From Methylocystis echinoides (GTDB lineage: Bacteria > Pseudomonadota > Alphaproteobacteria > Rhizobiales > Beijerinckiaceae), in NCBI RefSeq assembly GCF_027923385.1, contig NZ_BSEC01000001.1:1004501-1068500 (forward strand): DNA of 64,000 nucleotides, in the 5' to 3' direction. Position 1 is the stretch's first letter. Each line of letters opens with the position of its first letter. Positions 11,965 through 42,792 of the stretch are shown one piece after another. The position numbers were made by a program, and so were the translations under genes. The notes under the pieces are model-generated. The model worked only from the letters and a program-made list of their open reading frames with translations. It had not been told where the DNA came from and searched no databases.

Positions 11965-12639
11965 AGAGCTGAAGGCCGCGCGGGAATCGAGACCCGCGAG
12001 GATCAGGCCGCCGATCTGATGGGGCGCGCGAATCAGTTCGCGCGCCACAATTTTTCCATCCACGTCGCCGTCGGGGGTCAGAGCCATGGCCGCGAGCGGC
12101 GGCAGGGCGCGGTGCGCCGGATCGCTGATCGCGCGCATGACGGCGAAGGGAATGTCCCGGCCGCGGGCGAAATCCGCCGCGAGATGCGATTCCATGTCGA
12201 CGGCGGCGGCGTTGGCGTTTTCGCGCAGGCGCATCTTGGCGTGGCGGTCCATCGCCGGCTCGTCGACGCCGACAATCGCCCCTGGCACAACCTTGCAGCC
12301 CTTGGCGGCCGCGCCCTCGGTGAGCGCGTCGGAGAGGCGGCCATGCGTCTCATGGCGATCGGCGCCGGAGACGACGGCGTCGGCGATGACGAGATCGCCG
12401 GGGCGCAGCGCATGATCGAGCGCCCCCGCCAGCCCGAAGCTGACCACGGCGGCGAAGCGTTTTTCCTGAAGCTGGTCGAGATCGGCGCGCAGCTTGACGA
12501 CATTTGCGCCGCTGCACAGGACGACCACTCCTTCGCCGGCGACACAGGCGGCCTCGCGTTTCATGCCGGTGACGACGAGAACGGGGCCCTGCGCCGGAAC
12601 TCTGGCCGTCTCGCGGCGACGGCTCTCAAGCAGCGTCAT
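11905..12639 (-). CDS. hpnG: Hopanoid-associated nucleosidase/phosphorylase HpnG
   Basis: Member of the phosphorylase/nucleosidase superfamily, proposed to release adenine from adenosylhopane on the way to ribosylhopane. The 244-residue protein carries VSFGLAGALDHALRPGDLVIAD, the usual nucleoside-phosphorylase loop, and AAAVDMESHLAADFA, the nucleobase/ribose-binding MES motif. Identification leans on the adjacent hpnH and shc. The C-terminal about 20 residues are encoded inside the hpnH coding region on the other strand. The start at 12639 is the only convenient ATG. Confidence 0.88.
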   Translation of the reverse strand: MTLLESRRRETARVPAQGPVLVVTGMKREAACVAGEGVVVLCSGANVVKLRADLDQLQEKRFAAVVSFGLAGALDHALRPGDLVIADAVVSGADRHETHGRLSDALTEGAAAKGCKVVPGAIVGVDEPAMDRHAKMRLRENANAAAVDMESHLAADFARGRDIPFAVMRAISDPAHRALPPLAAMALTPDGDVDGKIVARELIRAPHQIGGLILAGLDSRAAFSSLGRCGPLLGPLLRLVLADL

Positions 12640-39998: not shown

Positions 39999-40751
39999 AT
40001 GAAAGAACCCGAAACGGGCGAGGCGCCGGCGACAGCGGCGGTTCTCGTCATCGGCGATGAAATCCTGTCCGGCCGGACGCAGGACACCAACACGCGCTAC
40101 ATCGCGACCTACCTTGCCCAGATCGGCGTCGATCTGCGCGAAGCCCGCGTCGTGCCGGACGTCGAGGAAGAGATCGTCGCGGCGGTGAATGCGCTGCGGG
40201 CGCGCTACACCTATCTCTTCACCACCGGCGGCATCGGGCCGACGCATGACGACATCACCGCCGACTCGGTCGGCAGGGCTTTTGGCGTCGAGGTGATCGA
40301 GGACCCCCGCGCGATGGCCATGCTGCGCGAGCGCTTTGCGGAGGAGGAGCTCAATCCCGCGCGCCGCCGCATGGCGCGTATTCCCCGCGGCGCCGAACTG
40401 GTTTGCAACGCCATATCGAAGGCGCCCGGTTTCTGGATCGGCAATGTGATCGTCATGGCCGGCGTGCCGGTTATCATGCAGTCGATGATGGACACGGTCG
40501 GCCCGCAACTGCGCAGCGGGGCGCGGGTTGAGGTCGAGACGGTCGAGGCGGGCTCCATTCCAGAAGGCAGTTATGCGATGCGGCTGGAAGAGATCGCGGC
40601 CGCGCATCCGGGGGTGAGCGTCGGCTCCTATCCGAATTTCTCGGGGCAGGGGGTGCGCAACCAGATCGTGCTGCGCAGCCGCGACGTGGCCTCGCTGGCC
40701 TCCGCGAAGGCGGCCGTGCGGGCGCTGCTCGCCGAACTCGCGGGCGCGTGA
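39999..40751 (+). CDS. Molybdopterin-binding (MoCF/CinA N-terminal-like) domain protein
   Basis: Soluble 250-residue protein. It begins with [22 protein letters not shown] and has the molybdopterin-binding [21 protein letters not shown] loop, the hallmark shared by MoaB/MogA/CinA. The length and absence of a C-terminal amidase domain mean it is the short CinA-like form, whose function is poorly defined (molybdenum cofactor or pyridine-nucleotide recycling). A SD-like GGGAGGCGG precedes the ATG. It is followed closely by gpt. Confidence 0.85.
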
Positions 40752-40768
40752 TGGAAAAGGAGTGCGGC

Positions 40769-41272
40769 ATGCAGCCCGAAAAATCCTTCCCCGTTTCCTG
40801 GGACATGTTCCACCGCGACGCGCGCGCGCTCGCCTGGCGGCTGGCCGCGATCGGCGGATTCTCGGCCATTGTCGCGGTCACGCGCGGCGGGCTGGTCCCG
40901 GCCGGCATCGTCGCGCGCGAGCTCGGCGTCCGCGTCATCGAAACGGTCTGCGTCGCCAGCTACACAGACGAGACCGAGCGCGGCCGGATCGAGGTGCTGA
41001 AGCCGCTGACCGACGCCATCCTGTCGCGCCCGAGCGCCGAAGTGCTCATCATCGACGATCTGGTGGACACCGGCGCGACCGCGAAGGCCGTGCGGGACAT
41101 GCTGCCGAAGGCGCATTTCGCGACCGTCTACGCCAAGCCGCAGGGCCTGCCGATGGTCGACACCTTCGTGACCGAGGTCTCGCAGGACACCTGGATTTAT
41201 TTCCCCTGGGACACGGGACTCTCCTTTCAGGCGCCGATCCACGCGCCCGCGCGCCGCACGCGACGGGGGTGA
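40769..41272 (+). CDS. gpt: Xanthine-guanine phosphoribosyltransferase
   Basis: Purine salvage enzyme of 167 residues that makes XMP/GMP from bases and PRPP. Start at 40769 ([14 protein letters not shown]), with AAGGAG eight bases upstream; the ATG at 40751 is an alternative. The PRPP-binding signature is [18 protein letters not shown]. Also present are [20 protein letters not shown] near the N-terminus and WIYFPWDTG near the C-terminus, both typical of bacterial Gpt. Confidence 0.93.
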
Positions 41273-41281
41273 ATTTCCCGC

Positions 41282-41311
41282 TTGGCGCCCGCGCGGGCCG
41301 GGGCCTATAAA
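41282..41311 (+). promoter_or_regulatory. Probable promoter of the split tRNA-Leu
   Basis: TTGGCG (41282-41287) and TATAAA (41306-41311) with an 18-base GC-rich spacer, about 19 bases ahead of the first tRNA nucleotide. Both boxes match the housekeeping sigma-70 pattern at most positions. Confidence 0.5.
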
Positions 41312-41329
41312 GTTGCGCTCACGCGGCAT

Positions 41330-41638
41330 GCGGGCGTGGCGAAACTGGTAGACGCAACGGACTTGAAACAATTTGAGTGCCCGGCGGGAAACCGCCGGCG
41401 TAGAACCGCTCAAAGTCGGGGAACCCTCGAAAAGTGGCGATCCCGAGCCAAGCCCGCCGTTCCGGCGGGAAGGTGTAGAGACTAGACGGGCGGCGCCTAA
41501 CGCGCGCGACAGCGCGCCACGGCGAAGGGATAGTCCAGACCCCAAACCCGCGCCAGCGGGGCGGCGAAAGTCGTGGCGGGTAAGAAAATCCGTAGGGCCG
41601 CAAGGCCTGTGCCGGTTCGATTCCGGCCGCCCGCACCA
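41330..41638 (+). tRNA. tRNA-Leu(UAA) interrupted by a group I intron
   Basis: Exons 41330-41364 and 41585-41638 join to an 89-nt tRNA with encoded CCA. Acceptor stem: GCGGGCG pairs with CGCCCGC. D arm: GCG-AAACTGGTAGA-CGC. Joined anticodon arm: ACGGA-CTTAAAA-TCCGT, so the anticodon is UAA. Long variable arm AGGGCCGCAAGGCCT marks a class II leucine tRNA. T arm: GCCGG-TTCGATT-CCGGC. The intron sits between U34 and A35, the same position as the ancient cyanobacterial/plastid tRNA-Leu intron. Processing must rely on self-splicing. Confidence 0.93.
41365..41584 (+). ncRNA. Self-splicing group I intron (IC3-like), 220 nt
   Basis: The 5' exon ends in ...ACUU and pairs with an internal guide GAGU inside AATTTGAGTG, putting the obligatory U.G pair at the splice site. 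The intron ends with G41584. P2 is a perfect hairpin CCGGCGG-GAAA-CCGCCGG (41381-41398). P4/P5 region: CAAAGTCGGGGAACCCTCG. P6: CCCGCCG/CGGCGGG (41453-41469). P7: GACTA (41480-41484) with TAGTC (41531-41535), within the typical TAGAGACTAGACGG and GGGATAGTCCAGAC blocks. P8: GCGCGC/GCGCGC. No open reading frame is encoded. It is GC-rich like the host, which suggests long residence. Confidence 0.92.
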
Positions 41639-41789
41639 CATTACCGAGTGCATTTTTTCGCGTGCCGATTTGAGCGAGCTAATGGCAGTTTGCTCTCAAG
41701 GCGCAGATTGAGAGTTTTACTTGACTGTTTCTAATGAGAAGTTGTCGATGGCCTTCAATGCTGCTTGCAAGCTTTACGGCTAACCGCGC

Positions 41790-42548
41790 ATGAGCACAAT
41801 CGATCGTCCCGCCTTGAAAGAAATCGTCTGGCATCAAATGCGGCAAGATTTGCAGTCATTGATACCGTGGTTCGCAAATAAAGAATTATTGCTGTGTCCG
41901 GCCTGTTGTCGTCCCCTTACGTTCGATGATTTCTCATTAGAACACATCATTCCAAAGCAAGCTTTGGCGTGTGACCCCCCGGATGTACGCGCCGCCATCC
42001 CGCAAAACGAACGCAGCGGGATGACTTTGTTATGCCGGAAGCCTCTTGTCATCAAGGGCAGAAGAATACCTGGTTCCGGTTGCAATAGCTGGAAAGGTAA
42101 GCACTACGATCCTTTTCTTCGTGAGCTTATTCGAAGCGTCAACCCTATAATAGCGAAGTTTAATTCGAGGCATCAATTAGCCTTGTTTTCAGCTGGCTAC
42201 CTTGGATTATTCCGCCAATTTGGTTACCAGATTGCACTTTTGCCCGCTGGCCTGCTTATGAGACATCAATTTTTTCACCCGAACAGGTTTCTTCGCGAAG
42301 TCCCACTGGACTGCCAAATGATTCTGGCAGGAGAGGCTTTGTCCGCGTATGATAGCGACTCTCGAAAGTATTGGAGTGAACCGTTCAAGATCACCGTGGA
42401 TGGATACTCAGCGCTCCTCATATTACGAAATATGGCCTTTAGGCTACCCTTATCGCGCGATCCCCTGGTGCCCATTGCACGAGCGCTGCCCTACGCACCG
42501 TCGAAATACGTCTTTAGACCTGATCTGAGGACGGTTTTCGAGTTATAA
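41790..42548 (+). CDS. HNH-type putative endonuclease in AT-richer islet
   Basis: Protein of 252 residues. The N-terminal half shows a zinc-dependent HNH pattern: CPAC (36-39), SLEHIIPKQ with H52, C82, then GCNSWKGKHYD with N99 and H105. The C-terminal half (about 110-252) is unrecognised. Base composition and codon use are visibly richer in A/T than in neighbouring genes (many TTA, ATA, AAA, TTT codons), suggesting horizontal transfer. It lies 150 bases after the intron-containing tRNA. It may be a restriction-type or stand-alone nuclease; a role in intron homing is possible but unproven. Confidence 0.7.
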   Translation: MSTIDRPALKEIVWHQMRQDLQSLIPWFANKELLLCPACCRPLTFDDFSLEHIIPKQALACDPPDVRAAIPQNERSGMTLLCRKPLVIKGRRIPGSGCNSWKGKHYDPFLRELIRSVNPIIAKFNSRHQLALFSAGYLGLFRQFGYQIALLPAGLLMRHQFFHPNRFLREVPLDCQMILAGEALSAYDSDSRKYWSEPFKITVDGYSALLILRNMAFRLPLSRDPLVPIARALPYAPSKYVFRPDLRTVFEL

Positions 42549-42653
42549 GGTGCCGTTGGCAGTAATCGCCAGAGATATTTTATCCTTTAGATGATTAGCT
42601 GTTTTATGGCATGTAATTCTTCGCGCGACCGTTACAGCTTTGCCACGCCTTCT

Positions 42654-42729
42654 CGTCATTGCGAGCAAAGCGAAGGAATCCAGAGGCCGTGATGTGACTC
42701 TAGATTGCTTCGCTTCGCTCGCAATGACG
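42654..42729. repeat. CGTCATTGCGAG-family palindromic element, copy 2
   Basis: CGTCATTGCGAGCAAAGCGA followed by AGGAATCCAGA on the left; the right arm TCTAGATTGCTTCGCTTCG CTCGCAATGACG is its near-perfect inverse. It ends the AT-richer islet before the permease gene. Confidence 0.8.
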
Positions 42730-42792
42730 AGGGAGCGCATGACAATCAATGCTTAACTTGCTTATCTGCGTGTGATCATTCGGGGGCATAGC

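Follow-up and report, generated by a model that had tools for sequence, protein, structure and literature searches.

This methanotroph has, as far as its genome shows, one tRNA-Leu(UAA) gene, and that gene is interrupted by a small RNA which very probably excises itself: judging from sequence comparison, we are highly confident that it is a functional, self-splicing, IC3-like group I intron belonging to a family of alphaproteobacterial tRNA introns. This kind of intron is already known and is not rare in the class; the interest lies in the series of filled and empty alleles found within a single genus, and in the wide family of introns to which this one belongs.

The split tRNA gene and the fold of its intron

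The gene occupies positions 41330-41638 on the + strand of the window (the whole stretch of 64,000 nt that was analyzed) and, as read from the sequence, it is complete, with CCA encoded. The 5' exon (41330-41364, 35 nt) covers tRNA positions 1 to U34 and ends in ...ACGGACTT, the 3' exon (41585-41638, 54 nt) starts at A35 with AAAATCCGT and ends in the encoded CCA, and the intron between them (41365-41584, 220 nt) has G as its first base and G41584, the omega G, as its last. Joining of the exons gives the anticodon arm ACGGA-CTTAAAA-TCCGT, with the anticodon UAA split at 34/35. ARAGORN, run on the locus with introns allowed, reports tRNA-Leu(taa) i(36,220), an insert between U34 and A35; without the intron option it reports zero tRNA across the whole window. 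Both exons agree with the respective parts of the unsplit genes of 17 congeners, in which the same tRNA lacks the intron, and comparison thus fixes the boundaries that the sequence-only reading had proposed, an insert of 220 nt exactly between U34 and A35.

As to the group I identity, Rfam reports nothing in the window at the gathering threshold. The model RF00028 (Intron_gpI) matches when compared with a 601-base stretch (34 bits, E 5.9e-7), below its gathering score of 50, and a genome-wide search with it reports a single match, namely the window intron (E 1.3e-6); we treat the gathering score as a detection threshold and not as a defining molecular feature. A model built from nine alphaproteobacterial tRNA-Thr(GGU) and tRNA-Arg(CCU) introns and from zero Leu introns (R2) matches positions 41403-41546 with 142.6 bits (E 2.2e-36), the next-best match in the window (12040-12167, 12.1 bits, E 0.054) being probably due to chance, and a second model (R1), whose training set includes the window intron, scores it at 137.8 bits. 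Covariance models thus recover the proposed intron, Rfam's under the cut-off and R2 with a high score. The structure is likewise shown by comparison. When 27 related introns, among them that of the window, were aligned over their cores and compared with a stated structure of P3, P4, P5, P6, P6a, P7 (a pseudoknot) and P8, 99.5% of 780 cells were found paired, with two-sided changes at 12 pairs; none of the 500 shuffles matches the core on any of five measures, and slid structures are 30-48% paired.

The individual elements, all on the + strand, can be followed along the intron. P1 (41361-41378; 41361-41367 with 41372-41378) is read from the sequence, and the same 7-pair hairpin appears in the centroid fold; it places the wobble U34.G41375 at the 5' splice site, and its internal guide GAGU (41375-41378) pairs with A31-U34, three more P1 pairs being intronic. 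A candidate P10 of 3 bp could be formed by UUU 41372-41374 with AAA 41585-41587 of the 3' exon. P2 (41381-41398), both read and present in the centroid fold, is a hairpin of 7 bp with a GAAA loop (41388-41391). P3 (41406-41411 with 41488-41493) shows two-sided changes in four of its six pairs and is also recovered in the centroid fold. P4 (41416-41421 with 41441-41446) is invariant in all 27 rows and encloses P5 (41425-41426 with 41436-41437), where GC to CG changes are seen at one of the two pairs; P6 (41447-41449 with 41472-41474), again invariant in the 27 rows, encloses P6a (41453-41456 with 41466-41469), with two-sided changes in all four pairs. The P7 pseudoknot (GACUA 41480-41484 with UAGUC 41531-41535) shows such changes in two of five pairs, and P8 (41494-41497 with 41521-41524) in one of four. 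Two adjacent 5-pair hairpins of the P9 region, one at 41547-41560 and one with a GAAA loop (41566-41569) at 41562-41573, are read from the sequence and seen in the fold, and the minimum energy of the single-sequence fold has a z of -2.85. The P2, P4-P6, P7 and P8 elements named from the letters alone, along with the U.G pair of P1 and the terminal G, have therefore all been found.

The conserved P3-P8 core with the P7 pseudoknot, the U.G pair at the 5' splice site and the terminal G are those of a group I intron. P7 is the helix that binds guanosine in such introns. The intron is small, is inserted in a tRNA anticodon loop and has no P5abc extension, its P5 being just 2 bp long under a short loop, in agreement with subgroup IC3 of bacterial and plastid tRNA introns as partly defined in PMC11835236.

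The precursor RNA would fold into P1-P9, and guanosine bound in P7 would attack behind U34, at the U.G pair of P1. The freed 3'-OH of U34 would then attack behind the terminal G41584, with P10 aligning the 3' exon, and exon joining would produce an 89-nt tRNA with the anticodon UAA. While this chemistry is what we infer, the need for it can be argued from the genome (5.32 Mb, 10 contigs, 99.09% complete; four matches to PF02461, the ammonia/particulate methane monooxygenase family, above cut-off). With all anticodons of its 46 RF00005 matches read, the other leucine anticodons are CAA, GAG, UAG and CAG, and an intact second tRNA-Leu(UAA), which by the sequence-only reading would have made this one a decayed copy, is not among them; R1 likewise has one match in the genome. 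Given the completeness of 99%, a missed second copy is unlikely, though possible. As the codon UUA is readable only by the anticodon UAA, a non-splicing gene should be lethal, and, with no other tRNA-Leu(UAA) found, splicing should work. A decayed or non-splicing copy, its tRNA being supplied by another gene, would be in line with an RF00028 score under the Rfam cut-off and with a gene missed by ARAGORN when run without the intron option, but we consider it next to impossible and have rejected it, since no other such gene is found, since, of the 14 further congener genes with an intron in this tRNA type, eight have exons identical to the window's, and since the core pairs are intact throughout the 27 aligned introns. 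The intron is real and, as far as comparison of sequences can tell, almost certainly active.

With 220 nt, equal to 73 codons at most, the intron has no room for a homing endonuclease ORF; the ORF listing took in frames of at least 80 aa, and those listed at the intron extend past its ends. One of 106 aa lies antisense to the tRNA gene (41319-41639, minus strand) and is probably spurious. A promoter scan gave no result, and no exact repeat (15-25 bases) of the tRNA 3' end, the mark of an island, is present elsewhere in the window. Directly 3' of the tRNA is a stretch of low G+C (41640-42750, about 0.47-0.52 versus about 0.64-0.74 in most of the surroundings), and similar DNA (72%) is found elsewhere in two congeners. 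It contains an ORF of 252 aa (41790-42548) with a weak HNH_5 match (E 0.025), which was considered as the homing endonuclease of the intron and rejected, as it lies outside the intron, in the low-G+C stretch, and the match is weak.

Filled and empty alleles within the genus

When 39 genomes of the genus were searched with positions 40740-42560 and the loci read with ARAGORN, 15 of them, the window's included, proved to have a complete intron in this type of tRNA, and in 17 the same tRNA stands uninterrupted after the same phosphoribosyltransferase gene (PF00156). In one genome (G1116) the 3' half of the intron gene alone is seen, at a contig start, another (G1101) has the intron in a different tRNA-Leu(UAA) type, two (G993 and G1108) have a different tRNA-Leu(UAA), unsplit, and three (G1107, G1110 and G1123, with completeness of 77, 90 and 59) show no tRNA-Leu(UAA) in the stretch examined. 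Compared with the exons of the window once joined, the unsplit genes agree at 89 of 89 bases in 12 cases and at 88 of 89 in five, and therefore both splice sites and the expected spliced product are fixed to the base. As to the introns themselves, the genus has 15 other full-length ones at tRNA-Leu(UAA), of which 13 share 81-93% identity with that of the window, the two of low identity being those of G1092 (79.5%) and G1101 (76.0%, the other tRNA type); the intron of G1127 is identical to that of Methylocystis sp. isolate JZJ.7. The intron is present in part of the genus only and appears to be gained or lost horizontally at this site.

One candidate for a recent gain is presented by G1092. In the tree of the flanking phosphoribosyltransferase gene (34 rows, two loci omitted), the intron and empty labels need three changes, and G1092 carries an intron of 256 nt, yet its upstream gene nests with those of 16 empty genomes (97/96). 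Forcing 11 intron rows together in this tree is rejected (p 0.00018), the tested clade having been defined before tree inspection and G963 and G1127, of a distant flank, having been excluded. On the 5' side, from the DNA before the tRNA to the end of the 5' exon, G1092 is 94-96% identical to the four empty alleles compared. On the 3' side the four relatives are not uniform: the match to empty G1117 and G1118 is 88.5-90.8% over about 1.3 kb, whereas that to empty G1129 and G1106 is confined to the 54-nt exon and a displaced block. The intron of G1092 clusters with those from other genera (95/97), away from those of its genus mates. From these sequences, horizontal gain of the intron alone is the simplest reading and a probable one. 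The pattern could also be due to a retained intron and many losses in the neighbours, the tree being a gene tree of the flank and not a species tree; an exchange of flanks instead of intron gain is a further alternative. If the intron was indeed gained, we infer that it moved by reverse splicing or by recombination through the exons, because 220 and 256 nt are too short for the usual homing endonuclease.

The genus thus presents a natural experiment, in which one tRNA occurs at one place as filled and as empty alleles, with exons often identical and with one probable fresh gain, and the spread of small tRNA introns that have no endonuclease becomes directly testable at the tRNA-Leu(UAA) locus.

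Hosts, family and origin of the intron

When 199 genomes from the order were searched by BLAST with the complete tRNA gene, 148 genomes matched, mostly via the tRNA exons alone; among the best 30 loci, 27 have introns, in Leu(UAA) (17, the window's included), Thr(GGU) (five), Arg(CCU) (four) and Leu(CAA) (one). Model R1 finds matches in 43 of 199 genomes of the family, 49 of 386 of the class and 45 of 397 of the phylum, all lower bounds with a bias to Leu, as R1 was trained mostly on Leu introns and 7-15 candidates per genome were scored, with stricter filters. In the class sample, taken from its named relatives to be alphaproteobacteria, Leu(UAA) introns are found in 19 of the 386 genomes versus nine with Arg(CCU) and five with Thr(GGU), as counted with R1, which leans to Leu; further sites are Lys-type UUU (six), Leu(CAA) (four), Thr(CGU) (two) and Lys(CUU)-type (two), and nine of the 49 genomes have at least one hit without an assigned site. 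The contrast that the sequence-only reading had drawn with a textbook intron in tRNA-Arg(CCU) is weakened by these counts, which correct the view of alphaproteobacterial tRNA introns as chiefly those of tRNA-Arg(CCU). The intron type turns out to be fairly common and probably still moving in its bacterial class, rather than a rare cyanobacterial loan, and the gene shows why its like are overlooked: ARAGORN without the intron option and the Rfam cut-off both miss it.

Named examples come from a pattern scan, with 80 loci listed of at least 118 stretches. At least 52 of the listed loci are Leu(UAA) introns by site calls, at least 26 of them in alphaproteobacteria (Bradyrhizobium, Caulobacter, Phenylobacterium, Brevundimonas, Sphingomonas, Sphingobium, Reyranella, Devosia and Methylocystis among them), at least nine in cyanobacteria, at least 10 in gammaproteobacteria, at least two in Bacteroidota and at least five in bins without class placement, two duplicates that the tree set lacks being included in these counts. 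The 28 loci not counted are mostly intron-less tRNAs that match the pattern by chance, and they include five with intron-like starts and no ARAGORN tRNA and one that is mis-sited. The site caller considers the anticodon loop only, requires a terminal G and favors introns preceded by U; as GGACTT and TTGAG were moreover part of the pattern, uniform site features across the introns are partly built in. Seven loci with no intron tRNA in ARAGORN were dropped, as were three without site assignment.

Related introns are also called, in the anticodon loop only, in other tRNAs: Thr(GGU), Thr(CGU) and Arg(CCU) at 36/37, Leu(CAA) at 33/34 and at 34/35 (three introns at the latter site are preceded by C, not U), and also Lys-type, Arg(UCU), CAU and Thr(UGU) tRNAs. 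Nine of 30 viral stretches from IMG/VR contigs have a tRNA-Leu(UAA) intron by site calls, and some others have intron-like starts at contig ends or intron-less tRNAs. One unannotated gene resembling tRNA-Lys(UUU), which by ARAGORN contains a group I intron of 238 nt, lies near an integrase gene of Gordonia phage Daredevil (NC_048021.1, positions 1454-1765); at the time of a 2014 review, phage introns were known in protein-coding genes only (PMC3984707).

A further example is a tRNA-Leu gene that lacks annotation, seems complete and contains a group I intron of 213 nt (NZ_CP116901.1, L391:5963-6261, and L392 and L393), its anticodon read as UAA and its ARAGORN label being tRNA-Stop. In all three records examined it adjoins aac(3)-IId and an AAA-ATPase gene. 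Matches to the window's tRNA occur in 1,284 of 72,556 plasmid records, mostly of Enterobacteriaceae, with a 75.7% match in 28 of the 30 rows sampled, and the L391-type intron has matches in 625 of 5,426 complete E. coli genomes. The joined exons of this gene are those of two genomes of the window's family, the introns being 93.4-93.5% identical, and in one of the two the match (91%) extends about 165 bases upstream of the tRNA; these sequences point to an alphaproteobacterial origin of the stretch.

For trees, 13 duplicate introns were removed, leaving 186, and five of at least 340 nt were omitted, leaving 181 in a quick tree; 90 of these, chosen by hand, entered a careful tree and the AU tests (211-213 columns, unrooted), for which the bootstrap had not settled and in which the cyanobacterial branch is long (2.35). 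The label gammaP takes in both named gammaproteobacteria and genomes from other classes of the phylum. The careful tree joins the window intron to Leu introns from its own genus (seven rows, 100/97), and its placement in the quick tree is the same. A branch with 100/98 separates a mostly alphaproteobacterial side of 74 rows, which includes the window (48 alphaproteobacterial Leu, 11 Arg, seven Thr and eight from another class of the phylum), from 16 rows (eight cyanobacterial, six gammaproteobacterial and two Bacteroidota). Membership of the window intron in the alphaproteobacterial tRNA intron family, which spans Leu, Arg and Thr, is well supported by such comparisons, with identities to alphaproteobacterial Leu introns of up to 92.4% (median 76.6), to Thr introns of up to 74.5% (median 70.4) and to Arg introns of up to 73.4% (median 69.0).

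Common descent, transfer and independent insertion had all been named as possible causes of the position shared with cyanobacteria. A recent horizontal transfer from the cyanobacterial tRNA-Leu(UAA) intron would explain it, and the 34/35 site, the U.G pair and the GAG guide are common to nine cyanobacterial introns, although these features were partly built into the search pattern; nor does the AU test reject the window's genus and the cyanobacteria as a forced group (p 0.214). Such a transfer is nevertheless very improbable and is not favored, because the best tree separates the window from the cyanobacteria by the 100/98 branch, the log-likelihood of the forced group is 26.9 lower, the identity to the nine cyanobacterial introns is 59.0% at most (median 56.3), well under the maxima for alphaproteobacterial Leu, Arg and Thr introns, and R2 gives eight of the cyanobacterial introns 75-92 bits versus 142.6 for the window. 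Alphaproteobacterial and cyanobacterial Leu introns as one clade give a borderline p of 0.0459.

Within the alphaproteobacterial side, the Arg introns (11 rows, 100/97) and the Thr introns (seven rows, 97/94) form one clade each, nested among Leu introns in the drawn tree, which is suggestive of Leu introns being paraphyletic to Arg and Thr, with Leu ancestral and Arg derived. The Leu(UAA) site may instead have been hit separately by alphaproteobacterial Arg(CCU) or Thr(GGU) introns, and not the reverse, as several tRNAs are occupied, as no root is set for the tree, and as the AU test does not reject a clade of Arg and Thr introns separate from all those of Leu (p 0.448); with Arg and Thr each confined to one clade inside the wide Leu spread, this appears unlikely. 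Alphaproteobacterial Leu introns as one clade give p 0.146. We tentatively propose, as a possible scenario that falls short of being the probable one, a single interchangeable alphaproteobacterial family of small introns without endonuclease, whose ancestral home would be tRNA-Leu(UAA), whose Arg(CCU) and Thr(GGU) members would have relocated, and whose Leu intron would still pass from one genus to another, entering empty sites through reverse splicing or through recombination guided by the exons. If Leu is indeed the ancestral home, the textbook Arg(CCU) intron and the Thr(GGU) intron would be derived relocations.

The intron among known tRNA introns

The cyanobacterial tRNA-Leu(UAA) intron is like the window's in its insertion between U34 and A35, its U.G pair and its GAG guide, features partly built into the pattern, and in a P3-P8 core recognized by the same model; it is unlike the window's in its identity, at most 59% over the nine examples, and in its separate branch in the trees. 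The shared site had been noted from the sequence alone, and it is found in these nine introns and, according to PMC4033280, in the plastid tRNA-Leu(UAA) intron. The same source describes group I introns in tRNA genes of cyanobacteria and of alpha- and betaproteobacteria, and tRNAscan-SE 2.0 is described as not designed for the detection of such introns (PMC8450103). Among the literature matches listed (titles and abstract openings, with subscription journals thinly covered), none concerns alphaproteobacterial tRNA-Leu introns, a search too narrow to prove their absence from the literature.

Gammaproteobacterial tRNA-Leu(UAA) introns occupy the window's site in at least 10 of the rows listed, along with eight rows of another class of the phylum. 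The six gammaproteobacterial ones used in the careful tree fall on the cyanobacterial side, unlike the window's, and the five used from the other class fall inside the alphaproteobacterial side. A gammaproteobacterial intron of this kind was reportedly described in 2002.

The intron of Azoarcus tRNA-Ile(CAU) shares with the window's a compact core and GAAA loops on P2 and P9, and it resides in another tRNA. Crystal structures of the Azoarcus intron are mentioned in PMC3984707. The alphaproteobacterial tRNA-Arg(CCU) intron is of the same family as the window's, with identity of up to 73.4% and 142.6 bits for the window under the Arg/Thr model; it differs in its tRNA, in its site (36/37) and in its guide sequence. 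Its type example is that of Agrobacterium.
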